A stretch of DNA of 13,300 nt from CBDUXP01 sp965371225 [NCBI: uncultured bacterium]. Its GTDB lineage: Bacteria; Abyssobacteria; SURF-5; CBDUXP01. Location: positions 1 through 13,300 of the forward strand of contig CBDUXP010000087.1 of assembly GCA_965371225.1 (NCBI GenBank), read 5' to 3'. Below the pieces are notes generated by a model. The model was not told where the DNA came from. It saw only the letters and a program-made list of their open reading frames with translations, and did no database searches. Position 1 is the first letter of the stretch, and each line of letters starts with the position of its first letter. The translations under genes and the position numbers were made by a program. Positions 1-13,300 of this stretch are shown piece by piece.

Positions 1-1292
1 GCGCCGAACGCGGTGGCTTCCAGCGGCGCCATGCGCTCCACCGGCTGGCCGACCACGTCCGCCTGAATCTGCATGAAGGTGTCGTTCGCCGCCGCGCCCC
101 CGTCCACGCGCAGCGCAGCGGGCCGCGGCACCGGCGCGTCGGCGTACACCTGGTCGAGCATCTCGCGCACGCGGAACGCGACCCCCTCCATCGCCGCGCG
201 GACCACGTGCGCTTTCGTCGCGCCGCGCGTCAGGCCGCCGATGAGCCCATGGCGCCCAGGGTCCGCGTGAGGCGTGCCGAGCCCCTGGAGCGCCGGCAGC
301 ACGAACACGCCATGGCTGTCCTCGACGCTCGCGGCGAGCGCCCCCGCCTCGGCCGGTGCGCCGAACATGCCCAGCCCCCCCGCCAGCCAGTCGAAGACCG
401 CGCCGGCGGTAATCACCATCCCTTCGATGCAGAAGACCGTCTCGCCGTCCCGCCGCCACAGCACGAGCGGATAGGTGCCCTGGGCCATCACGAGATCGCC
501 GCCCGTATGCACGTTGCAGGTGCCCGACGTGCCGAAGGTCACCTTGCCGTCGCCCGGTTGGCGGCAACCCTGCCCCACCGCGGCGCTCTGCTGATCCCCG
601 ACGATGGCCCCGATGGGGACCTCCGCCCCGAGCACCGCCTTCGCGCACTGCCCGAGGTTCCCTGCCGTATCACACAGTGTAGGAAGGAACTCCGGCGTAA
701 GGCCCTGGGCAGCGATCAGCTCCGCGTTCCAGCCGCCGCTGATGAAATCGTAGTAGCCGGTGGCGCAGCCCTGCGACGGGTCTGTGATGTGCGCGGCGCC
801 ACCGCTGAGCCGCCACACCAGGAACGCGTCCACGTTGCCCCAGATCAAGTCCCCCCCTTGCATCCGTTCCCGCCCGCGGTCGATCCCGTCCAGCACCGCT
901 TCGAGTTTGGCCGCCGACGTCTGCGGCACCACGAGATACCCCTCGCCCTGCAGTTCCGCCGCGCGCGCGGTCCCGCGCAGGTCCTGCCAACTGACCAGGG
1001 GGGCGGCGGCACGGCCCGAGCCCCGTTCCCACACGATGATGCTCGCCCGCTGGCTGGTGATGCCCACCGCGCCCAGGTCCGCGGCGGACAGGCCCGCCGC
1101 ACTCAGCGCCTGGCCAATCGTGTCCCGCGCCGTGCTCCACAACTGCTCGGGATCCTGTTCCACGAGGCCCGGCGCGGGGTACTGGAGGGTGAACGGCGCC
1201 CGCGCCTGGCCGCGCACCGTCCCGTCGGCCCCGATGACCAGCGCGCGGACACTCGTCGTGCCGGCGTCCAGGGCGAGAACGGCCTCAGGCAT
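1..1292 (-). CDS. FGGY-family carbohydrate kinase, glycerol kinase-like, 3' end outside window
   Basis: This is an ATP-dependent sugar or polyol kinase; about 430 of roughly 500 residues are present and the reading frame is still open at base 1. Seen: the N-terminal phosphate-binding motif LALDAGTTSVR (residues 6-16), TSQRASIIVWER, WGNVDAFLVWRLSGG, the catalytic-base motif GDQQSA (Asp about 233), GTSGTCNVHTG, LQGLGTPHADPGRHG and DGGAAAND (397-404). The order and spacing follow GlpK, and phosphorylation to a 3-phosphate would feed the adjacent GlpD. However, positions that contact glycerol in E. coli GlpK look changed: Glu84 to Ala (QRA instead of QRE), Tyr135 to Gln (PQTSAAKL instead of PYFSATKL) and Phe270 to Thr. 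Substrate identity is therefore uncertain and I give no symbol. The ATG at 1290-1292 lies inside the end of the upstream oxidase gene (8-bp overlap) without a clear Shine-Dalgarno, which points to translational coupling. Confidence 0.88.
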   Translation of the reverse strand, partial: MPEAVLALDAGTTSVRALVIGADGTVRGQARAPFTLQYPAPGLVEQDPEQLWSTARDTIGQALSAAGLSAADLGAVGITSQRASIIVWERGSGRAAAPLVSWQDLRGTARAAELQGEGYLVVPQTSAAKLEAVLDGIDRGRERMQGGDLIWGNVDAFLVWRLSGGAAHITDPSQGCATGYYDFISGGWNAELIAAQGLTPEFLPTLCDTAGNLGQCAKAVLGAEVPIGAIVGDQQSAAVGQGCRQPGDGKVTFGTSGTCNVHTGGDLVMAQGTYPLVLWRRDGETVFCIEGMVITAGAVFDWLAGGLGMFGAPAEAGALAASVEDSHGVFVLPALQGLGTPHADPGRHGLIGGLTRGATKAHVVRAAMEGVAFRVREMLDQVYADAPVPRPAALRVDGGAAANDTFMQIQADVVGQPVERMAPLEATAFG

Positions 1293-2712
1293 CGGGCACG
1301 AGCACGCCCGGGTTCATGAAGCCGGTGGGGTCGAGCGCTTGCTTGAGCGCGCGCAGGACCTGCACGCCGCTTTGCCCCAGGTCGTGGCCGATGTAGGGCC
1401 GGCGCAGGCGACCAATGCCGTGGTGGTGCGCCACGCCGCCACCGCCGTCTGCCGTCGCGGTCATGACGCGGCGCCAGCATTCGCGGTACGTGTCCGCCAT
1501 GGCGGCCGGGTCGTCGGGCCGCGCGGCGAAGGTGAAGTACAGGTTGATCCCCGAGCGGTACACGTGGGAGCTGTGCGCCGAGGCGTTGAGGATGCCCTCC
1601 ACCTCTTGCAGCGCCGCGAGCGCGGTCCGGTAGATGGGCCCAATCCGGTTCCAGGTGGCGGAGATTTCGATGGTGTCCAGCACCACCCCGTTCTGCAGGA
1701 ACCGGTCCCACGTGGGCACGTGGTTGCGCTCCGCCAGCCAGTGGGCCACCGCCTCCACGGGCGCGTCCTCCAGGCCCGCCCCATGGGCTATCGCGCGGGT
1801 GGCCGCCAGCTCCGCCTCCACTCGGGCCGCGGGCCCCTCGTGCACGAAGAGCAAGAACGCGTCGTCCCCCCGCGCCTGGTCGGGGAACAGGCGGTGCGCC
1901 TCGCTGGAGTCGTACTGGCGCATGACCACGGGCAGCCAGCCCGCCTGCACGATCTGCCGCTGCGCGTCGAGCCCGGCTTCCATGTCCCGCGCGTACAGCG
2001 CCAGGTGCGTCTGCTGCTCGGCGGCGCGGCGCAACATGAATGTGACCCCGGTGATGACGCCCAGGGTGCCCTCGCTGCCCAGGAACAGGTGGCGCAAGTC
2101 CGGCCCGGCGGCCGCGCGCGGGGCTTTGCCGGCTTCGATGACCTGGCCGGTGGGCAGCACCGCTTCGATGCTATAGATGATGTCTTCGATGCTGCCGTAG
2201 CCGGTGGAGAATTGTCCTGCCGCGCGCGTGGCCACCCAGCCGCCGACGGTGCTCACGTCGATGGACTGGGGCCAGTGGCCGATGGTCAGGCCGCGAGCGG
2301 CGACGGCGCGTTCGGCGGCCATGCCGTTGTGGCCCGCGTCAAAGCCGGCGAGCAGGTTCTTTTCGTCGATGAAACGCACGCGATCCATGGCGCTCATGTC
2401 GATGAGCACGCTTTCCGGGTGCGCCACCACTCCGCCGCAGACGCCGCTGCCGAGCCCGAACGGGATCAGCGCGGTCCCACTCTCGCGGCAGGCGTTGACG
2501 GTGGCCACCACGTCCTCGACATTCGCGGGGCGTACTACGCAGGCAGGCGTCGGCGCCGGCCGGTCCTGCAGGTCGTCCAGGTGGCTCAGCACCCAGTAGT
2601 CGTGCCGCCGCGCCTGCAACGTCTCCGCGTCGGTCCGGACTTTCTCGTCGTCCAGCACCCGCTTCAACTCGTCGACAATCGCCATCGTCACGGAAGAACC
2701 CCCTGCCTTCAT
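1285..2712 (-). CDS. FAD-binding oxidase, alkylglycerone-phosphate synthase (AGPS)-like
   Basis: A 475-residue flavoprotein of the FAD_binding_4 / FAD-linked oxidase C-terminal family. Seen: the FAD-binding part RPANVEDVVATVNAC (61-75) with PFGLGSGVCGG (84-94), then GHWPQSIDVSTVGGWVATRA (145-164), YGSIEDIIYSIEAVLPTG (172-189), FLGSEGTLGVITGVTF (210-225), LYFTFA (391-396) and AHHHGIGRLR (428-437), ending ALDPTGFMNPGVL. STVGGWVATR and the His triplet are hallmarks of AGPS rather than of D-lactate dehydrogenase or GlcD, which normally carry EHGIG. AGPS makes ether bonds from acyl-dihydroxyacetone phosphate, but many bacterial homologues are uncharacterised, and no acyltransferase is in view. I chose the ATG at 2710-2712 because it overlaps the glpD stop as ATGA; a longer start at 2757 would overlap glpD by 49 bp, and an internal ATG at 2685 (MAIVDELK) is also possible. 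Its 3' end overlaps the FGGY kinase. Confidence 0.88.
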   Translation of the reverse strand: MKAGGSSVTMAIVDELKRVLDDEKVRTDAETLQARRHDYWVLSHLDDLQDRPAPTPACVVRPANVEDVVATVNACRESGTALIPFGLGSGVCGGVVAHPESVLIDMSAMDRVRFIDEKNLLAGFDAGHNGMAAERAVAARGLTIGHWPQSIDVSTVGGWVATRAAGQFSTGYGSIEDIIYSIEAVLPTGQVIEAGKAPRAAAGPDLRHLFLGSEGTLGVITGVTFMLRRAAEQQTHLALYARDMEAGLDAQRQIVQAGWLPVVMRQYDSSEAHRLFPDQARGDDAFLLFVHEGPAARVEAELAATRAIAHGAGLEDAPVEAVAHWLAERNHVPTWDRFLQNGVVLDTIEISATWNRIGPIYRTALAALQEVEGILNASAHSSHVYRSGINLYFTFAARPDDPAAMADTYRECWRRVMTATADGGGGVAHHHGIGRLRRPYIGHDLGQSGVQVLRALKQALDPTGFMNPGVLVPDA

Positions 2713-4310
2713 CCTTGGCGCACCACCGCCATCTCTTGCGAGCGGCACAGGCGACATGCTGCGATTTGCCGGTCGCGTTCCTCGTCGGTCCAGCCCAGCA
2801 GGGACGCCATCGCCTCGGCCGCGGGGGCCAGCGCCGCCATGCCGCCGTCGTCATCGAACCGCGCGCGGGCACTGCGGCGGATCCAGTAATCCTCCAGGGT
2901 CACCGCCCCTTCGCACTGGACGGCGTGCGCGGCTTCCGCCGCCGGCCCACCGCCCGCGGCGCAGACCTCGAGCGCCTCGGCACCGTACAACCGGGCGGCC
3001 CGTTCCGCCTCATCCGTCCCCAGGCCCAGGGCCTGCAAGCGCGGGCGCAAGTCCGCGAGGCAGCCCGCCACGTCGCCCCCCGGCAGAGGCTCCTCGGCCG
3101 TGCGACACGCCGTGGGCTGGCGGCCCAGGCGCGGCTCGCAGGTGTCCACCACCCGCTCCGCCATGCAGCGGTAGGCGGTGAGTTTGCCCCCGGCGATGGA
3201 GAGCACGCCCCCCGGCCCCTCGAGCACTTCGTTCCGCCGCGAAATCTCGCTCGGCTTCCGGCCGGGCTCACCAAGCAGGGGCCTCACGCCGGCCCAGACC
3301 GCCACCACGTCCGCCGGGGTGAGGGGAGGTACGGTGAACGCCCGCGCCGTGGCGCTGAGAAGATACTGGATATCATCTGTGCTAATCGTTGGCCAATACA
3401 CGGCTTCGGAATAGAACGTATCGGTGGTGCCCAGATAGACGAAACGGCCGCGAGGCACCGCAAAGATGCCGCGCTTGTCAGGCGTCTGCATGGTGAGCGC
3501 CCGCGAGATGGGCAGCCGCTCTCGGGGCACCACCACGTGAATCCCCTTGGTGAGCTGCAGTTTGCCGGTCGCGTCGCGATCTTCCAGCCGCCGGATGGCG
3601 TCCACCCACGGGCCCGACGCGTTCACCACGATCCGCGCGCGGACGGTCGCACCGCCCGTCTCGTCCGTGAGGGCGTCGCGCACCTCCGCACCACAGGCCA
3701 CGCCCCCGTCGAGGATGATGCTGTTGACGGCGGCGTAGCTCGACACCACCGCCCCCGCGGCCGCGGCGCTGCGGGCGTTGGCCACGGTCAGGCGGGCGTC
3801 GTCGGTCAGGTACTCCGGATACACCACCACGCCTGCAAGCCGGTCGGCGACCACCGCGGGCTCCTCCGCCCGAAGGCGCTCGGCATCCCACACCTCGTGG
3901 CGCTCGCCCGCGTCCACGTTGCCCAGCTTCTCGTACATCCACATGGCCGTTTGCAGCGTCTTCAACCCGACGGCGGACCGGGCAGGGAGCACGAAGGGAA
4001 GGCGTTGCGCCAGGTGCGGCGCGATCCGGCGCAGAATCCGGCGCTCGTTGGCCGCCTCGCGCACCACGGCCACGTCGCCCTGTGCCAGGTAGCGCATGCC
4101 GCCGTGCACCAGCTTGGAGGAGCGGCTCGAGGTGCCCGATGCGATATCGCGCGCCTCCACCAGCGCCACGCGCAGCCCCCGCTGGGCCGCGTCCCGCGCG
4201 ATGCCGCACCCCGTAATGCCCCCGCCGATCACCAGGACATCGAAAGTTTCCCCCTCCAACGCGGCGAAAGCTGCGGCGCGGTCGCGGAAATCCAGGTTGG
4301 CAGCGGTCAT
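2709..4310 (-). CDS. glpD: Glycerol-3-phosphate dehydrogenase, FAD-dependent (aerobic GlpD type)
   Basis: Oxidises sn-glycerol 3-phosphate to dihydroxyacetone phosphate and passes electrons to the quinone pool at the inner membrane. The protein is 533 residues, in the normal range of about 500-560. Seen: the Rossmann and family signature VIGGGITGCGIARDAAQRG (27-45), SSKLVHGGMRYL (64-75), MWMYEKLG, VNASGPWVD (229-237), the substrate-side stretch TKGIHVVVPRERLP (254-267), VYLGTTDT, AGVRPLLGE, the second signature region IAGGKLTAYR (372-381), and a C-terminal DAO_C domain with TLEDYWIRRSARARFDDDGG (471-490). The ATG at 4308-4310 begins a typical GlpD N-terminus; the frame stays open upstream to 4691 but that part runs antisense through tetR. 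There is no obvious Shine-Dalgarno, and a 9-bp-stem hairpin ends 8 nt before the start. It is followed without a gap by the AGPS-like oxidase (ATGA), so it is probably co-transcribed from the tetR promoter. Confidence 0.93.
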   Translation of the reverse strand: MTAANLDFRDRAAAFAALEGETFDVLVIGGGITGCGIARDAAQRGLRVALVEARDIASGTSSRSSKLVHGGMRYLAQGDVAVVREAANERRILRRIAPHLAQRLPFVLPARSAVGLKTLQTAMWMYEKLGNVDAGERHEVWDAERLRAEEPAVVADRLAGVVVYPEYLTDDARLTVANARSAAAAGAVVSSYAAVNSIILDGGVACGAEVRDALTDETGGATVRARIVVNASGPWVDAIRRLEDRDATGKLQLTKGIHVVVPRERLPISRALTMQTPDKRGIFAVPRGRFVYLGTTDTFYSEAVYWPTISTDDIQYLLSATARAFTVPPLTPADVVAVWAGVRPLLGEPGRKPSEISRRNEVLEGPGGVLSIAGGKLTAYRCMAERVVDTCEPRLGRQPTACRTAEEPLPGGDVAGCLADLRPRLQALGLGTDEAERAARLYGAEALEVCAAGGGPAAEAAHAVQCEGAVTLEDYWIRRSARARFDDDGGMAALAPAAEAMASLLGWTDEERDRQIAACRLCRSQEMAVVRQG

Positions 4311-4318
4311 GTAGTAGG

Positions 4319-4349
4319 GCCGTCGCGCGCGCGGGCGGCTCGCGACGGC
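4319..4349 (-). promoter_or_regulatory. Hairpin in the tetR-glpD junction, next to the glpD start
   Basis: Bases 4319-4327 (GCCGTCGCG) pair perfectly with 4341-4349 (CGCGACGGC), leaving a 13-nt loop. On the minus-strand mRNA the stem ends 8 nt before the glpD ATG, where a Shine-Dalgarno would normally be, and there is no U tract. It could limit glpD translation or mark an mRNA processing point between regulator and enzymes. Function is inferred; in such GC-rich DNA a 9-bp stem can also arise by chance. Confidence 0.4.
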
Positions 4350-4396
4350 GCAACAGCCTACCCCAAACCGTCTGGGCCGGTGCAGGGCGCGGCGGT

Positions 4397-5023
4397 TCAG
4401 TCCGCCGTGCCGGTCAAGTAGGCCTGCAGCAAGTCGGCCACCCAGTCCTGAAAGCGGTCCGCGGTGCGGTGATCCCCCGGCAACCCGACGCTCCGGCGCA
4501 TCTCGCGGCCCAGGATGGGCTCGGCGCACAGAAGGATCTGCATCAGGGCCAGAGCGTGCATGGTGTCTGCCGCATCCGGCACGCGGGTGCCCGCCCGGCG
4601 GGCGCGCGCGGTGCGTCCTGCATGCACCGCTTCGGACAACTCCTTGAACATGCCCGCGCCCTTGGGACGCCATCCCGCCATGGACAGCCATAAGGCCAGC
4701 CGGGCGTAGCCCTTGCGCTCGTAGGTCTCGGCCAGCAGGTCAACCAGGCGCCGCACGTCCAGCGCATCCGCATCCCAGTCCGCGACCGCCGCGGTCACCT
4801 CCTGCCGCAGCCGGCGCCCTGCGGACCGGAGCAGGGCGTCCATGAGCCCCACCCGGCTGCCGAAATGGTAGTGCACCGCCGCGTCGGTGATGTCCAGTTC
4901 CCGGGCCACGGCCTGCACGCGGACGGCATCGGGGCCGCCGTCGATGAGGAGGCGCTCGGCGGCTTCCAGGATAGTGCGGCGCGCATCCGCCGCCGGGAGG
5001 CGCCGGCGCTGTCGTCTGGCCAT
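4397..5023 (-). CDS. TetR/AcrR-family transcriptional regulator
   Basis: A 208-residue one-component repressor-type protein. Seen: a basic N-terminus (MARRQRRR), then the TetR DNA-binding domain TILEAAERLLIDGG (17-30) and a helix-turn-helix at about 36-55, VQAVARELDITDAAVHYHFG, with the family-typical VHYHFGSRVGLMDALL. The remaining about 140 residues are a helical ligand-binding and dimerisation domain that I cannot assign to a ligand; LALWLSMAGW and ALALMQILLCAEPILG look like core helices. It is the first gene of the tetR-glpD-oxidase-kinase set (86-bp gap to glpD) and diverges from the alpha/beta hydrolase. The palindromic operator array begins 40 bp upstream of its start, so autoregulation and control of both directions is the simplest reading. 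The inducer may be a substrate or product of this pathway (inference). Confidence 0.9.
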   Translation of the reverse strand: MARRQRRRLPAADARRTILEAAERLLIDGGPDAVRVQAVARELDITDAAVHYHFGSRVGLMDALLRSAGRRLRQEVTAAVADWDADALDVRRLVDLLAETYERKGYARLALWLSMAGWRPKGAGMFKELSEAVHAGRTARARRAGTRVPDAADTMHALALMQILLCAEPILGREMRRSVGLPGDHRTADRFQDWVADLLQAYLTGTAD

Positions 5024-6307: not shown

Positions 6308-6359
6308 GAGCGGCCGTGGCGCAGCGCGTCATTTTGCTGACTGCACGAGCGGCCGTGGC
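6308..6359 (+). repeat. 13-bp direct repeat GAGCGGCCGTGGC, two copies
   Basis: Identical copies lie at 6308-6320 and 6347-6359, offset by 39 bp, each containing the palindromic core CGGCCG. The second copy ends 47 bp before the aceB ATG. Paired direct sites in front of a regulated operon can be activator or repressor sites; no binding protein can be assigned from sequence. Confidence 0.5.
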
Positions 6360-6406: not shown

Positions 6407-8050
<1,644 letters not shown>

Positions 8051-8112: not shown

Positions 8113-9396
8113 ATGTCGCACGAGCCTCGGCCGACCGAGGAACTGAGCAACGAATGGGATGCGGATGCCCGATGGGACGGGGTCACCCGGACCTACGGAC
8201 CGGCTGACGTCCTGAAGCTGCGCGGGACGGTACACATTGAACATACGCTCGGCCGGATGGGGGCGGAGCGGCTGTGGCACCTGATGCAAACGGAGCCCTA
8301 CGTGCGGGCGCTCGGCTGCCTGACGGGCAACCAGGCCATGCAATGCGTGAAGGCCGGGCTCCAAGCCATCTACCTGAGTGGCTGGCAGGTGGCCGGCGAC
8401 GCGAACATCGCGGGCCAGATGTATCCGGACCAGAGCCTCTACCCGGCCAACAGCGTGCCGGAACTGGTCAAGCGGCTGAACAACACGCTGCGGCGCGCCG
8501 ACGAGATCCACCACGCGGAAGGCAAGAACGATTACTACTGGTACCCGCCCATCGTCGCGGATGGCGAGGCCGGTTTTGGCGGGCACTTGAACGTGTTCGA
8601 GTTGACGAAGGCGATGATCGCCGCCGGCGCCGCGGCCGTGCACTACGAAGATCAACTCTCCTCGGAGAAGAAGTGCGGCCACATGGGCGGCAAGGTGTGC
8701 GTGCCCACGAGCCAGTTCATTCGCACCCTCATCTCGGCTCGCCTGGCCGCGGACGTCTGCGATGTGCCGACGATCATCGTCGCCCGCACGGATTCCAAGG
8801 ACGCCAAGCTGCTGACCAGCGACGTGGATGAGCGCGACCGAGAGTTCATCACGGGCGAGCGGACCCCCGAAGGGTTCTATTGCGTGCGCGACGGCCTCGA
8901 CGTCGCTATCAAGCGCGCCCAGGCCTACGCGCCGTACGCCGACCTGCTCTGGTGCGAGACGCAGCACCCGGACCTGGACGAGGCGAAGCTGTTCGCCGAG
9001 GGCGTGCACGCGGTGGCGCCGAACAAGATGCTGGCGTACAACTGCTCGCCATCGTTCAACTGGGAAGCGAACCTGGACGACACCACCATCGCGAAGTTCC
9101 AGCGGGAACTCGCGGCCATGGGGTACAAGTTCCAGTTCATTACCCTGGCGGGCTTCCACGCGCTGAACCATTCCATGTTCGACCTGGCGCGCCACTACAA
9201 CGGCGCGGACGCCATGACCGCGTACGTGGACCTGCAGCAGCGGGAATTTTCCGACGACGTGCATGGCTACACCGCCACGAAGCACCAGCGCGAAGTCGGC
9301 GCCGGGTACTTCGATGCCGTGGCGCAAATCGTGGCCGGCGGTGAAGCCTCCACCACGGCGCTCACGGGCTCCAGCGAACAAGAACAATTCGCGTAG
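8113..9396 (+). CDS. aceA: Isocitrate lyase
   Basis: Cleaves isocitrate to glyoxylate and succinate, the committed step of the glyoxylate shunt, allowing growth on acetate and fatty acids. The 427-residue length matches the short bacterial form (E. coli about 434). Seen: [12 protein letters not shown] (87-98), MYPDQSLYP (103-111), metal-binding [10 protein letters not shown] (148-157) with Asp150, the catalytic signature [12 protein letters not shown] (183-194) with Cys188, IIVARTD (221-227), [11 protein letters not shown] (307-317) and the typical C-terminus with TGSSEQEQF. All catalytic residues I can identify are present. The start is set by AAGGAG (8099-8104), 8 nt before ATG 8113. It follows aceB and is followed by a strong hairpin at 9433-9460. 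Confidence 0.96.
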
Positions 9397-9432
9397 GGCG
9401 GCCCACCGGGGACGCTTTCGTCCAATGTAGCC

Positions 9433-9460
9433 CGGGCCCGGCTGACACCAGTCGGGCCCG
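9433..9460 (+). terminator. Strong hairpin after aceA, terminator-like
   Basis: Bases 9433-9444 (CGGGCCCGGCTG) pair with 9449-9460 (CAGTCGGGCCCG) through 12 bp, one of them a G-U wobble, around a 4-nt loop (ACAC). The hairpin begins 36 bp after the aceA stop. No U run follows, so it may instead be an RNA-stability or Rho-assisted 3' end. It separates aceBA from the regulator gene. Confidence 0.5.
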
Positions 9461-9489
9461 TGGCGTGTCCCGCCGCGGCGCACGGTGTG

Positions 9490-9495
9490 TACAAT
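9490..9495 (+). promoter_or_regulatory. Candidate -10 element for the regulator gene
   Basis: TACAAT matches five of six bases of the -10 consensus and lies 70 bp before the chosen GTG start, just after the aceA hairpin. No recognisable -35 lies at the right distance. If used, transcription would begin near 9502, which would rule out in-frame starts at 9485 and 9494. Confidence 0.25.
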
Positions 9496-9565
9496 GCATG
9501 GCGCACCGAATGCCGTGTGCCCCGGTTTCGCCCGGGCGCCGCCGCCCCGGCGCGCGAGATCCCCG

Positions 9566-10936
9566 GTGAGCAGCGCTCCCCCGTTTCAGGTTCTCATCAT
9601 CGAGCCCGAGTCCGCGGGCGGCTCGCTGTTGCATCACCAGGTGGAAGCGTTCGGGCATGCGGCGCGCTACGTCCGCACGGCGGAAGAGAGCCTCGTGTGG
9701 CTCACCACCGAAGTGATGGACGTGGTCGTGTTCCGCGTCACGCGCGCGGATGCCGCCGCCGGGCGAGAGATCCGCGACCTTCGCGCCCGCGCCGCCGGGG
9801 CTGAGGTAGTGCTGGTGGCGAATCAGAATGCGGTCGCAGCCGCGGCCGAAGCGGTGCGCCAGGGCGCGTTCGCCCTCGTGGCCGAGCCGTACCGCATCGA
9901 CGCGTTGGAACTGGCTATCCTCCGGGCGGGCGAGACTCGCCGGCTCCGGCTGGCGCGCGACGGGATGCGGGCGCTCACGCGCGGCCGGCCCGCGGCTTCC
10001 AAGCTCGTCGGCTCGAGCCCGCCCCTGCGCCGCCTGCGGGAGGATGCGGCCCGGGTGGCGGCCACGGATACGCCCGTGCTGATCACCGGGGAGTGGGGGT
10101 CGGGAAAGACCGCGCTCGCCGAGACCATCCACCAACTCGGCGACCGGAGCGAGCATCCGTGCTGCGTCGTCGAGTGCGCGGGGAAAACCGAGTCCGCTGT
10201 GACCGCCGAGCTGTTCGGCCATGCGGGAGAAGGGAGCCATCCCCCCGGGATCCTGCACGCGGCCGACGGCGGCACCCTCGTCGTGCAAAACGTGGTCGCC
10301 CTGCCCCCAACGCTGCAAACGGCTCTGGCGCGCTTGCTCGAGACGGGCGAGGTGGTGCCGCCCCACGGCGGCCCGAGCCGGCGCGTGGACGTGCGGGTGA
10401 TCGCCACCTCTGCGGAGGACCAGGCGGGATCCGTCGCGGCCGGCGTCTTCCGCAAAGAACTCCTGTACCGGCTGAACGCGCTGGAGTTTCACGTACCGCC
10501 CTTGCGCGAGCGAGCCGGCGACATCCGCGAACTCACGGAATACTTCCTCGCGGCGGCACCAGTGGCCGGCCCGGCGGAGGGCGTGCACGACGCGGTGATC
10601 GACCTGTTCGCGCGGTACGGGTGGCCGGGAAACGTGTGGGAACTGCGCACGGTCGTCGAGTGGGCCGCGGTCCGCGCGGCGGGCCCGCTCATCACGCTTG
10701 CAGACGTGCCGCCCCTGGAGCGGCGGGAACTGGAACCCAGCCACGGGGATGCGCCGCGGACATCGCTGCGGCTCGCGGAGATCGAGTTGCTGCACATTCA
10801 GCGGGTGCTGCACCTCTTCCGCGGCAACAAGACTCAGGCTGCGCGCGCGCTGGGCATCACCACGAAAACTCTGTACAACAAACTCAACCGGTACGCGCGC
10901 ACTGCCGCGGCGGCGGACCCGGCGGCACGCCCCTAA
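9566..10936 (+). CDS. Degenerate NtrC-family regulator: pseudo-receiver, inactive-looking AAA+ domain, Fis-type HTH
   Basis: A 456-residue DNA-binding regulator with enhancer-binding-protein architecture. The receiver-like domain (about 6-120) starts FQVLIIEPE, but the phosphoacceptor position reads DVVVFR (Arg57 for Asp) and the usual Lys-Pro is Glu107-Pro. In the AAA+ domain (about 145-375), Walker A is intact, GEWGSGKT (175-182). The region that should carry GAFTGA reads ELFGHAGEGSHPPG (215-228) with the motif deleted. Walker B is GGTLVVQNV with Gln-Asn (241-242) for Asp-Glu, and the sensor II GNVREL is GNVWEL (Trp358). FRKELLYRLN and PPLRERAGDI are well kept. The C-terminal HTH, GNKTQAARALGITTKTLYNK (420-439), looks fully functional. 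It should bind DNA but not drive sigma-54 polymerase. The GTG start at 9566 gives a normal receiver N-terminus; GTG 9485 and ATG 9494 are alternatives with an arginine- and proline-rich extension. Confidence 0.88.
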   Translation: MSSAPPFQVLIIEPESAGGSLLHHQVEAFGHAARYVRTAEESLVWLTTEVMDVVVFRVTRADAAAGREIRDLRARAAGAEVVLVANQNAVAAAAEAVRQGAFALVAEPYRIDALELAILRAGETRRLRLARDGMRALTRGRPAASKLVGSSPPLRRLREDAARVAATDTPVLITGEWGSGKTALAETIHQLGDRSEHPCCVVECAGKTESAVTAELFGHAGEGSHPPGILHAADGGTLVVQNVVALPPTLQTALARLLETGEVVPPHGGPSRRVDVRVIATSAEDQAGSVAAGVFRKELLYRLNALEFHVPPLRERAGDIRELTEYFLAAAPVAGPAEGVHDAVIDLFARYGWPGNVWELRTVVEWAAVRAAGPLITLADVPPLERRELEPSHGDAPRTSLRLAEIELLHIQRVLHLFRGNKTQAARALGITTKTLYNKLNRYARTAAAADPAARP

Positions 10937-10940
10937 CCCC

Positions 10941-11558
10941 ATGACCGGTGTGCCCCCCCCGTCGACCGACGGACCGCCGGCCACGCCCCAGTCACGCACC
11001 GCGACGCAGCGGCTCGCCTGGCAAGCGCTCTTCTGCGCGGCGTGGTATCCCGTTGGTGGGGTGGCCCTGGGATTTCTGCCGCTGGCGGAGTCACGCCTGG
11101 AAGTGGCCCTCGGGCAACTGGGCCTGGCCATCGGCCTGTGTGTCGGGACGGGGATCGCCGCCGCCCTGTGGGCGACGCGCTGGCTGCGCGGCCGGGGTGG
11201 CACCCTGCGCGCACGGCTGAACCTCCTGGGATGGGGCTATGGCGTGCAGGCCGCGGCCGCGCTGCTCGGGCTCGGCATCAGCAGCGCTGCGGATCCGCCG
11301 ACCCTCGCCGCGGTGATCGGCCTCACCGTGGGGTGTACGCTCCCGGTCGCCATCGCCACGGCCTACGCCGCGACCACACCCGCGCACCGCGCGATGGAGT
11401 TCGGCCAGGCGATCTTCGCTGCCCCAGTGGCGGCCGGGGTGTTGCACCTCTCGGGGGTACGGCCCGAAGGGTTCCTGGCCCTGACTGCGGCGTTCATGAG
11501 CCTGACCGGCTGGCAGGCCTGGTCGCGCCAGGTTGAGGCGACGCCGGCTGGGGACTGA
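10941..11558 (+). CDS. Small multi-pass membrane protein of unknown function
   Basis: I do not recognise a family. The 205-residue protein has a Pro/Thr/Ser-rich polar N-terminus (1-27), then about six hydrophobic segments: roughly 28-48, 56-80, 93-113, 119-143, 152-170 and 175-193. A basic loop WLRGRGGTLRARLN (81-94) is probably cytoplasmic. The composition (Ala, Gly, Leu) and short loops suggest a small integral membrane protein; no catalytic motif stands out. ATG 10941 begins 4 bp after the regulator stop and has no clear Shine-Dalgarno, so it is probably translated by coupling with the pseudo-NtrC regulator, which hints at a functional pair. Its TGA stop abuts the stop of the convergent transporter gene. 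Confidence 0.75.
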   Translation: MTGVPPPSTDGPPATPQSRTATQRLAWQALFCAAWYPVGGVALGFLPLAESRLEVALGQLGLAIGLCVGTGIAAALWATRWLRGRGGTLRARLNLLGWGYGVQAAAALLGLGISSAADPPTLAAVIGLTVGCTLPVAIATAYAATTPAHRAMEFGQAIFAAPVAAGVLHLSGVRPEGFLALTAAFMSLTGWQAWSRQVEATPAGD

Positions 11559-13130
11559 TCAGCCGCGTTCGTCCAGGCCGCCGGGCTTGAGCCCGCGCTC
11601 CACTAGCCCCAGCCCCGCGTCCACTGCGACGGCCAGCAACGCGGCGGGCAACGCGCCGGAGAGGATGATGATCGTGTTGTTGAGCTGCAGGCCCGAGACG
11701 ATCTCGCGCCCCAGGCCGCCGGCGCCGATGAACGCCGCCAGCGTGGCGGTGCCGACGGTGATGACGCCGGCGGTGCGCACCCCCGCCATGATGATCGGCG
11801 CCGCCAAGGGCAGGCGCACGTACCGCAGCACCTGACCATCGGTCATGCCGAGGCTCGTCGCGGCCTCGACCACATCCGGCGGCGCGTCGCGCAGCCCCGA
11901 ATACGTGTTCCGCAGGATCGGGAAGATCGAGTAAATCCACAGGGCGGCCACGGCCGGCTTCCATCCCACTTCCCCGAACAGGGGCAGCATGAACGCCAGG
12001 AGGGCGATGGACGGAATGGTCTGCGACACGCCGACAACGCGAATCGTGTGTTCCGCGCCCGCAGGCCAGCGTTCCAGCAGCAGCCCGAGGGGGACGGCCA
12101 CGAGCACGCCGAGGCCGAGCGCCGCGGCCGACAGGAGCAGGTGCTCGACGGTCCGCTGCCCCAACGCGCGCCGGTTCGCCAGCATGTAGCTGAGCAACGT
12201 CTGTCCCGCCGTGGAGACCGCATGCACTTCGCGCTCCCCCACTAGCCCGAGGGCCCGCAGCGCGTCGTGCGCCACCTGTTCCACCGGAGCGCTTTCCGGT
12301 GGCTCCAGGCGCAGGTTGAGCGTACGCATGTGCTCGGCGTCGAGCACGCCGGCCAACTGCTCCAGAATCGCGAAGAGTTCTGGATACTCCTCCAGCGTCT
12401 CCCCGCGGATCAGCGGCGCGGCTTCGTAGGGCGGAAAGAAGTGTTTGTCGTCCTCGAGCACCACGAGATCGAACAGCGCCAGGTTGCCGTCGGTGGTATA
12501 CACGTCCAAGCAGTCCACCTGCCCGAGCCCCGCGGCTTGGTATTTCAGGTTCTGCTGCATGGTCTTCACGTCCTTGAAGACCAGGCCGTAGGTCTGTTCC
12601 AACCCCGGCAGCCCGTCGTCCCGCTTCGCGAATTCATACCCGAAGCCGGCGGTCATCTCGCCCGAGACGGTCGCCAGGTCCGAAATCGTGCGGATGCCGT
12701 GCGCGTCCGCCAAGGCGCGGGGCACGGCCAGTTCGTACGCGTTCTCGAACCCCAGGGGGCTCAGCCACCAGAGGTTCCACCGGCGGAGAAATTCCTGGCG
12801 CACGCGGAAACGCGCCTCGGGCGCGCCGCCCTCCACTTTTTCCCCGAGCAGCGTGACGAGCCCCGTGCCCGTGTACTCGGGATACAGATCGATCGCACCG
12901 GTGCGGAGGGCATCGAAACACACCTTGGTACCGGCCAGGTTCAGGCGGCGGTGGACGGGAATGTCCGAGTGCGCTTCGATGAGCTGCGCAAACATCTCGG
13001 CGAGGAGGCGGCTCTCTTCGAAGTTCTTGGAGGCGACGGTGATATCCGCCCCCGCCGGTTGCGCGCACAGGACGAGCCCCACCGCCGAACCGAGCGCACC
13101 CACCAGCGCGCGCCGCACCCAAGACGCCAT
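11559..13130 (-). CDS. Fused osmoprotectant-type ABC transporter: substrate-binding domain plus permease
   Basis: A 523-residue importer component of the glycine betaine/carnitine/choline (OpuC/ProW-ProX) family. Seen: a Sec signal peptide (VRRALVGALGSAVGLVL, AGA cleavage near 28/29, no lipobox), then a binding domain (29 to about 300) with ITVASKNFEESRLLAEMFAQ (30-49), DLYPEYTGTG (81-90), DCLDVYTTDGNLALF (206-220) and FFPPYEAAPLIRG (231-243). The permease (about 310-515) has HLLLSAAALGLGVLVAVPLG (330-349), VSQTIPSIALLAF, and the ATPase-contact EAA loop EAATSLGMTDGQ (422-433) with RLPLAAPIIMAGVRTA. Binding domain first and permease second is opposite to the fusions I recall (ProWX/OpuFB type). 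I chose ATG 13128-13130 because it starts the signal peptide; the frame is open to 13256 but only by reading through an inverted repeat. No ATPase gene is visible in the window. Confidence 0.92.
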   Translation of the reverse strand: MASWVRRALVGALGSAVGLVLCAQPAGADITVASKNFEESRLLAEMFAQLIEAHSDIPVHRRLNLAGTKVCFDALRTGAIDLYPEYTGTGLVTLLGEKVEGGAPEARFRVRQEFLRRWNLWWLSPLGFENAYELAVPRALADAHGIRTISDLATVSGEMTAGFGYEFAKRDDGLPGLEQTYGLVFKDVKTMQQNLKYQAAGLGQVDCLDVYTTDGNLALFDLVVLEDDKHFFPPYEAAPLIRGETLEEYPELFAILEQLAGVLDAEHMRTLNLRLEPPESAPVEQVAHDALRALGLVGEREVHAVSTAGQTLLSYMLANRRALGQRTVEHLLLSAAALGLGVLVAVPLGLLLERWPAGAEHTIRVVGVSQTIPSIALLAFMLPLFGEVGWKPAVAALWIYSIFPILRNTYSGLRDAPPDVVEAATSLGMTDGQVLRYVRLPLAAPIIMAGVRTAGVITVGTATLAAFIGAGGLGREIVSGLQLNNTIIILSGALPAALLAVAVDAGLGLVERGLKPGGLDERG

Positions 13131-13140
13131 CCCAATAAGC

Positions 13141-13230
13141 TGGGGTAGGGGCCGGTCTTCAGACCGGGCCGGCCCGGGCGGAAACTCGCAGCTGGGGCGC
13201 GGGCCGGTCTGAAGACCGGCCCCTACCCCA
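13141..13230. repeat. Long inverted repeat with 27-bp arms in the transporter leader
   Basis: Bases 13141-13167 are the perfect reverse complement of 13204-13230, with a 36-bp spacer. Each arm contains its own near-palindrome around CCGGTCT/AGACCGG. The element ends 10 bp before the transporter start codon on the minus strand. On the plus strand it is followed by GGTTTTTT (13231-13238), giving a terminator-like layout in that direction. Arms of this kind resemble dispersed REP- or MITE-like palindromes found in many copies in some GC-rich genomes; only one element is in this window, so that is inference. Confidence 0.8.
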
Positions 13231-13300
13231 GGTTTTTTAAACAGCCAGCTAGGCATCGCCGACCACGCCCCCCCCCCCGGCCCCGCGCTCGTGCTCCAGC

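Follow-up and report, generated by a model that had tools for sequence, protein, structure and literature searches.

An enhancer-binding-protein-type regulator with a degenerate receiver and AAA+ domain, encoded downstream of aceB and aceA

Introduction

Which parts of a bacterial enhancer-binding protein (bEBP) are still needed once sigma-54 is no longer its partner? A gene at 9566..10936 (+ strand) of the DNA studied here would be a natural test. It encodes a 456-aa protein, hereafter the regulator, and lies in a stretch of 13,300 nucleotides from an uncultured bacterium that we call the window. A preliminary description, made from the sequence alone, held that the regulator keeps the bEBP architecture and has lost nearly every catalytic motif, and proposed that it is a nucleotide- or ligand-binding switch that does not hydrolyse ATP. 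We asked how far the residues, the predicted structure, the homologues and the surroundings of the gene bear this out. The question has a practical side: profile searches file such proteins under a sigma-54 interaction domain, so automatic annotation is likely to be misleading.

Results

The regulator gene is intact and coding-like

The gene runs from a GTG start at 9566 to a TAA stop at 10934-10936, with in-frame alternative starts at 9485 (GTG) and 9494 (ATG). Its 456 codons contain neither a stop nor a frameshift. GC per codon position (0.766/0.519/0.860) resembles that of the neighbour genes and is thus coding-like. Pfam recognises Sigma54_activat (PF00158, the sigma-54 interaction domain) at 120.9 bits, AAA_lid_14, and HTH_8 at 42.3 bits.

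We considered whether the unusual residues could be base-calling errors. By the codon table, it takes two or more base changes to reach Q241, N242, R57 or E203 from the usual residue, and the loop 1 deletion preserves the reading frame; for K107E or R358W, one base could be enough. As a whole, therefore, the changes are not base-calling errors. We also simulated drift by substitutions only. At 0.3 changes per site, the simulated copies acquired 5.1 stops on average and 3 of 400 runs stayed free of stops. At 0.05 changes per site, 34% of the runs were stop-free, so recent decay of the gene is compatible with the intact frame. A pseudogene dead for a long time is hard to square with this outcome; recent decay is not, and function is not proved by it.

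The receiver-like domain lacks the residues of phosphorylation

We aligned the regulator with 80 homologues, kept from at least 479 confirmed loci of a search of genome contigs, and with NtrC, TyrR and DhaR of Escherichia coli. All 80 listed homologues carry the pattern KTLYNKLN, and the other five patterns occur in none of them. Because HTH columns 434-441 belong to the stretch by which the loci were selected, no count includes them. Motif names are given to residues by what we take to be the usual family alignment.

The receiver-like domain (9584..9925, + strand) has Pro, Arg, Ala and Glu in place of Asp14, Asp57, Thr85 and Lys107. The loss of the phosphoacceptor Asp (Arg57, CGC at 9734-9736) and of the conserved Lys (Glu107, GAG at 9884-9886) had been noticed before and is plain in the alignment, where column 57 is Asp and column 107 is Lys in 79 of the 80 homologues each; Pro14 and Ala85 are additional. 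The first 120 residues score 18.9 bits against Response_reg, below the cut-off of 30.2, and the predicted fold matches the receiver structure 3kcn (Z 18.7, 1.6 Å over 128 residues). A phosphorylated response regulator has a phosphoacceptor Asp, an acidic pair, a Thr/Ser and a Lys, and the regulator has Arg57, Pro14, Ala85 and Glu107 instead. Judged by these residues, its receiver is unable to accept phosphate. The exchange of Asp57 and Lys107 for Arg57 and Glu107 is a reciprocal charge swap, and the two new residues probably form a fixed salt bridge that replaces the Asp-Lys pair. No histidine kinase was found among the nine window proteins scanned with Pfam.

The AAA+ domain is eroded and the helix-turn-helix is kept

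The AAA+ domain, of bEBP type with its lid, occupies 10001..10717 on the + strand. The preliminary description had reported that it lacks GAFTGA and carries Gln-Asn at Walker B and Trp at sensor II; codons and alignment agree with this. GAFTGA or a close variant is present in 80/80 homologues and is deleted in the regulator, whose loop 1 (10208..10249) reads ELFGHAGEGSHPPG, five residues less than in the homologues, and resembles the ELFGHAPEGKKG of TyrR. The Walker B Asp-Glu is replaced by Gln241-Asn242 (CAAAAC, 10286..10291) and the sensor II Arg by Trp358 (TGG, 10637..10639); columns 241, 242 and 358 are Asp, Glu and Arg in every one of the 80. The alignment with NtrC, TyrR, DhaR and the homologues thus gives a deleted GAFTGA and a replaced Asp-Glu. 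It also adds losses not described earlier: Glu203 (10172..10174) for the switch Asn, Ser282 for the sensor I Thr, Glu186 for the Arg after Walker A, and a rewritten loop 2 (VPPH versus RRVG). The changes in loop 1, Walker B, the switch Asn, sensor I, loop 2 and sensor II all fall at columns that are 95-100% uniform among the 80 homologues.

Walker A (GEWGSGKT, 10088..10111), the Arg-finger region (FRKELLYRL, 10448..10474) and the Fis-type helix-turn-helix (10772..10894) had been described as kept, and they are: Lys181, Arg296 and Arg302 are in place, and the HTH keeps 7/7 conserved columns outside the stretch used for selecting loci. Walker A has one peculiarity, Thr182, at a position that is Glu or Asp in the homologues. 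A review reports that bEBPs carry Asp/Glu where the classical Walker A has Thr/Ser after the Lys (PMC7175178); with Thr182 the regulator has thus gone back to the classical GKT form. In sum, what the regulator shares with sigma-54 enhancer-binding proteins is the bEBP-kind AAA+ fold and the Fis HTH; the GAFTGA loop 1, the Walker B Asp-Glu, the switch Asn and the sensor II Arg are missing.

We then took the 70 AAA+ columns in which 95% or more of the 80 homologues agree. The regulator keeps 42 of them, DhaR 41, TyrR 58 and NtrC 63, and in a leave-one-out control each of the 80 homologues kept at least 94%. Erosion is uneven, with 7/7 columns kept in the HTH versus 42/70 in the AAA+ domain.

AlphaFold2, given an alignment of the regulator and 49 of the 80 homologues, predicted a three-domain fold (mean pLDDT 90, pTM 0.74). 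The leading structural matches are NtrC1, NtrC4 and NtrX, with LuxO, FleQ and VpsR lower. The AAA+ part alone superposes on the NtrC1, LuxO, FleQ and PspF structures with an rmsd of about 1.7-3.5 Å. Multi-domain superpositions give 13-22 Å because the domains are placed differently.

The combination is rare among close homologues and one case of a scattered kind

We extended the search to two groups of genomes, centred on the loci L039 and L003, which judging by their loci appear to be Myxococcota and Planctomycetota, respectively. In the L039-centred group (195 genomes, at most the best 8 candidates scored per genome, matches listed at E <= 1e-60) the listed matches are 32-38% identical to the regulator; in the L003-centred group (392 genomes, at most the best 4 candidates per genome, E <= 1e-64) they are 32-41% identical. 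Neither an orthologue of the regulator nor a homologue with Gln-Asn at Walker B is among the matches listed for the genome contigs and these two groups. Walker B Asp-Glu is kept in 53 of the 54 homologue rows from the kept group loci, at least four of these rows being genes that are also in the set of 80. A search of viral contigs returned one match, which covers the HTH end of the regulator alone.

A tree suggested kinship with Planctomycetota, which we rejected: the branch of the regulator is about 10 changes per column long, as is that of DhaR, and its position is therefore meaningless. In the same tree, a regulator whose record title reads Comamonas sp. KCTC 72670 (L053) groups inside the Myxococcus part; the title may be wrong.

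How unusual is a regulator of this kind? We surveyed PF00158 in four genomes of the L039-centred group and one plasmid, which gave 95 rows. Near-full-length rows mostly lie between about 207 and 252 bits, and a tail extends below them; the regulator, at 120.9 bits, belongs to the tail. We fetched 13 of the 95 rows, all of them from the four genomes; two score 207 and 221 bits and the other eleven belong to the tail, so that the set is mostly low-scoring, and it omits short partial rows and most rows below 61 bits. An intact GAFTGA is missing in 10 of these 13 domains and the Walker B Asp-Glu pair in 8. The bEBP-type AAA+ domains seen without Asp-Glu are L160, L162 (the same gene as L133), L165, L166, L167, L168, L169 and L170; among them L160 has a degenerate receiver, and the receivers of L166 and L170 are intact.

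The survey suggests that such degenerate bEBP proteins are not rare in some genomes. The exceptional status implied by the preliminary description was thus overstated: DhaR is equally eroded, VpsR shares features with the regulator, and several more cases turned up in this small survey. By sequence, the regulator's combination is rare among close homologues yet one case of a scattered kind. Loss of loop 1 is already known, GAFTGA deviations having been reported in around 110 homologues in a 2011 survey (PMC3162934), and the novelty of the regulator is moderate to low.

Discussion

The regulator resembles known sigma-54-independent relatives

The regulator has bEBP architecture and has lost loop 1, two features that it shares with the degenerate, sigma-54-independent regulators DhaR, TyrR and VpsR. 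DhaR of E. coli is about as eroded by the column count: its bEBP-type AAA+ domain has no GAFTGA, Walker B is Glu-Lys and sensor II is Phe. In DhaR, unlike in the regulator, the switch Asn is still there and both Arg-finger arginines are gone; DhaR is also longer (639 aa), and its N-terminal region is not known to be a receiver. E. coli TyrR, which is not known to have a receiver, shows a similarly replaced loop 1 but keeps the Walker B Asp-Glu, the Arg-finger arginines and sensor II. L160, from genome G074 of the L039-centred group, is like the regulator in having a receiver-like domain in which the Asp is missing and Arg replaces the Lys, and an AAA+ domain without GAFTGA and with His-Glu at Walker B; it differs in that its Walker A Lys is Arg and its sensor II Arg is kept.

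VpsR of Vibrio cholerae (PDB 7v2b), the third hit when the AAA+ sequence was searched against the PDB, shares the short loop 1 and a degenerate Walker B (Asn-Asp). Its receiver-like and AAA+ domains match those of the regulator with the domains placed differently (Z 27.2, rmsd 21.7 Å over 347 residues). VpsR lacks the Arg fingers and has the sensor II Arg, and the regulator is the reverse. The receiver Asp of VpsR, reported for phosphate sensing (PMC10274813), corresponds to an Arg in the regulator. The NtrC proteins of Rhodobacter capsulatus and Caulobacter have the same receiver/AAA+/HTH order and a deleted loop 1, and their receiver Asp is reported to be required for activation (PMC10274813). 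Both this Asp and the Walker B Asp, the latter needed in Caulobacter NtrC, are missing in the regulator.

The preliminary description was right that relatives without GAFTGA, namely TyrR, R. capsulatus NtrC and VpsR, act with sigma-70: R. capsulatus NtrC, Caulobacter NtrC and VpsR are described at sigma-70 promoters (PMC10274813), TyrR, DhaR and HupR are described as sigma-70-dependent proteins (PMC3162934), and VpsR is also reported to work with sigma-70 in PMC9303241. On ATP, the relatives disagree. R. capsulatus NtrC requires ATP binding and not hydrolysis, VpsR does not require ATP, and Caulobacter NtrC, which also lacks GAFTGA, requires its Walker B Asp in vivo (PMC10274813). Loss of loop 1 alone thus does not mean loss of hydrolysis.

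A regulator that probably neither contacts sigma-54 nor hydrolyses ATP

With loop 1 absent, contact with sigma-54 is not expected, and with Walker B, the switch Asn and sensor II absent, neither is normal ATP hydrolysis. Because loop 1, Walker B, the switch Asn, sensor I and sensor II are altered and the fold, the P-loop and the HTH remain, we think that the regulator is probably a degenerate, sigma-54-independent bEBP-type transcription regulator that does not hydrolyse ATP and acts with a housekeeping-type sigma factor or represses, a reading for which we would argue with some confidence and which is built on one sequence. The Fis-type HTH would attach the regulator to DNA, where it would act on RNA polymerase carrying the housekeeping-type sigma, or repress, with neither sigma-54 nor hydrolysis taking part. 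The receiver would serve as a dimer or contact module held by the Arg57-Glu107 salt bridge. The AAA+ domain may still bind nucleotide and oligomerise, since its P-loop and its two Arg-finger arginines are in place, and the nucleotide would then be a structural or allosteric ligand. Nucleotide binding without hydrolysis appears the likeliest case. The earlier proposal of a non-hydrolysing nucleotide or ligand switch therefore stands in part: a sigma-54-independent, non-hydrolysing protein is the best reading, and its suggestion of c-di-GMP as a ligand is unsupported (Glu186). Should DNA binding be governed by nucleotide binding without hydrolysis, the regulator would connect an AAA+ pseudoenzyme with the control of central carbon metabolism.

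Four other explanations must be set against this. In the first, the regulator is a sigma-54 activator whose residues are noncanonical and which can nevertheless hydrolyse ATP, as the Walker A Lys, both Arg-finger arginines and the overall bEBP fold might suggest. But GAFTGA is deleted, and Walker B Asp/Glu, the switch Asn and sensor II are all replaced. Sigma-54-like sites are at chance level in the window (4 found versus 5.74 expected), and no such site, allowing up to two mismatches, lies upstream of aceB or of the regulator. We consider a sigma-54 activator very improbable. A gene decaying before its first stop codon would account for the 28 of 70 conserved AAA+ columns lost and for the lack of an orthologue among the matches listed, and, as about a third of simulated copies (34%) are free of stops after 0.05 changes per site, recent decay would leave the frame open. 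However, the 456 codons have no stop or frameshift where 0.3 changes per site would give about 5 stops, the codon-position GC resembles that of the neighbours, the HTH is kept 7/7, and two of the receiver changes are charge-reciprocal; we regard decay as unlikely.

The remaining two concern the pocket. The regulator might be a receptor for c-di-GMP or another second messenger, like FleQ, FlrA, VfmH or VpsR, working with sigma-70. VpsR, third in the AAA+ search of the PDB, has the similar short loop and degenerate Walker B that such a reading would want. In VfmH, c-di-GMP binding is reported to require an Arg directly after Walker A (PMC10714721). This residue, by which FleQ/FlrA/VfmH-type receptors may be recognised, is Glu186 in the regulator, an objection that concerns one of three VfmH arginines; and no cyclic-dinucleotide enzyme is among the nine window proteins scanned. 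We hold a second-messenger receptor to be about as doubtful as a decaying gene. A little less doubtful, and still improbable, is a DNA-bound repressor or architectural protein whose AAA+ domain is a scaffold binding no nucleotide. Most pocket residues are gone, and VpsR is reported not to need ATP (PMC10274813). Against this, an intact Walker A in the classical GKT form together with both Arg-finger arginines would be hard to explain if no nucleotide were bound.

The surroundings of the gene

What might the non-hydrolysing, sigma-54-independent regulator that we favour control? Its gene lies downstream of those for malate synthase (aceB, 6407..8050) and isocitrate lyase (aceA, 8113..9396), both identified by Pfam and on the same (+) strand. 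They are candidate targets, and control of aceBA by the regulator is a guess from position only. In 14 aceA regions from other genomes, aceB adjoins aceA in 13, and a comparable regulator directly follows aceA in none (in one region, L100, an EBP-type match lies about 6 kb off), so that the link to aceBA is without comparative support. Judged by titles, no fitting literature was found on aceA control by an NtrC-type protein or on doubly degenerate regulators.

A consensus scan found no + strand sigma-70 promoter-like site upstream of aceB or the regulator; its one site is on the - strand. This counts against the favoured reading, and taken together the sigma-54 and sigma-70 scans, which are simple ones, favour neither side. 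Upstream of aceB, at 6308..6359 (+ strand), there are two exact 13-bp copies of GAGCGGCCGTGGC, 39 bp apart from start to start, which form a weak candidate operator. Shuffling that upstream stretch 2000 times gave such a repeat 5 times, and near-copies of GAGCGGCCGTGGC across the whole window are at chance level. Between the copies, at 6328-6341, GTCA-N6-TGAC can be read by eye. Between aceA and the regulator gene, a GC-rich hairpin without a T run lies at 9433-9460 (12-nt arms, 92% complementary). The interval 9397-9500 has a folding z of -2.22, equalled in 5 of 200 shuffles. Rfam gave no match at gathering thresholds.

A small hydrophobic protein of 205 aa with coding-like composition starts 4 nt past the regulator stop (10941..11558, + strand). 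Pfam (above cut-off), NCBIfam and the plasmid collection gave no match for it. This protein is a possible partner or signal input of the regulator, again a guess from position only. One could go further and imagine the charge-swapped pseudo-receiver and the GKT-type AAA+ domain as a non-hydrolysing ATP/ADP sensor of cell energy, or of a membrane signal received via the hydrophobic protein, that sets aceBA at a sigma-70 promoter; we offer this as a speculation with little chance of being right in full.

On the - strand, a single ORF at 11559-13256 encodes the substrate-binding and permease domains of a glycine betaine-type ABC transporter; its nearest match in the plasmid collection is 52% identical, from Gemmatirosa. 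At the other end of the window, 3-5023 (- strand) holds a row made up of a sugar-kinase-like frame, an FAD-linked oxidase, a glycerol-3-phosphate dehydrogenase-like FAD protein and a TetR regulator. The FAD-linked oxidase is 58% identical to a Novosphingobium plasmid protein, and the match also touches an FGGY kinase there. The best plasmid-collection matches of five neighbours diverge, pointing to Nonomuraea/Streptomyces, Mycetohabitans/Deinococcus, Gemmatirosa, Novosphingobium and Embleya.
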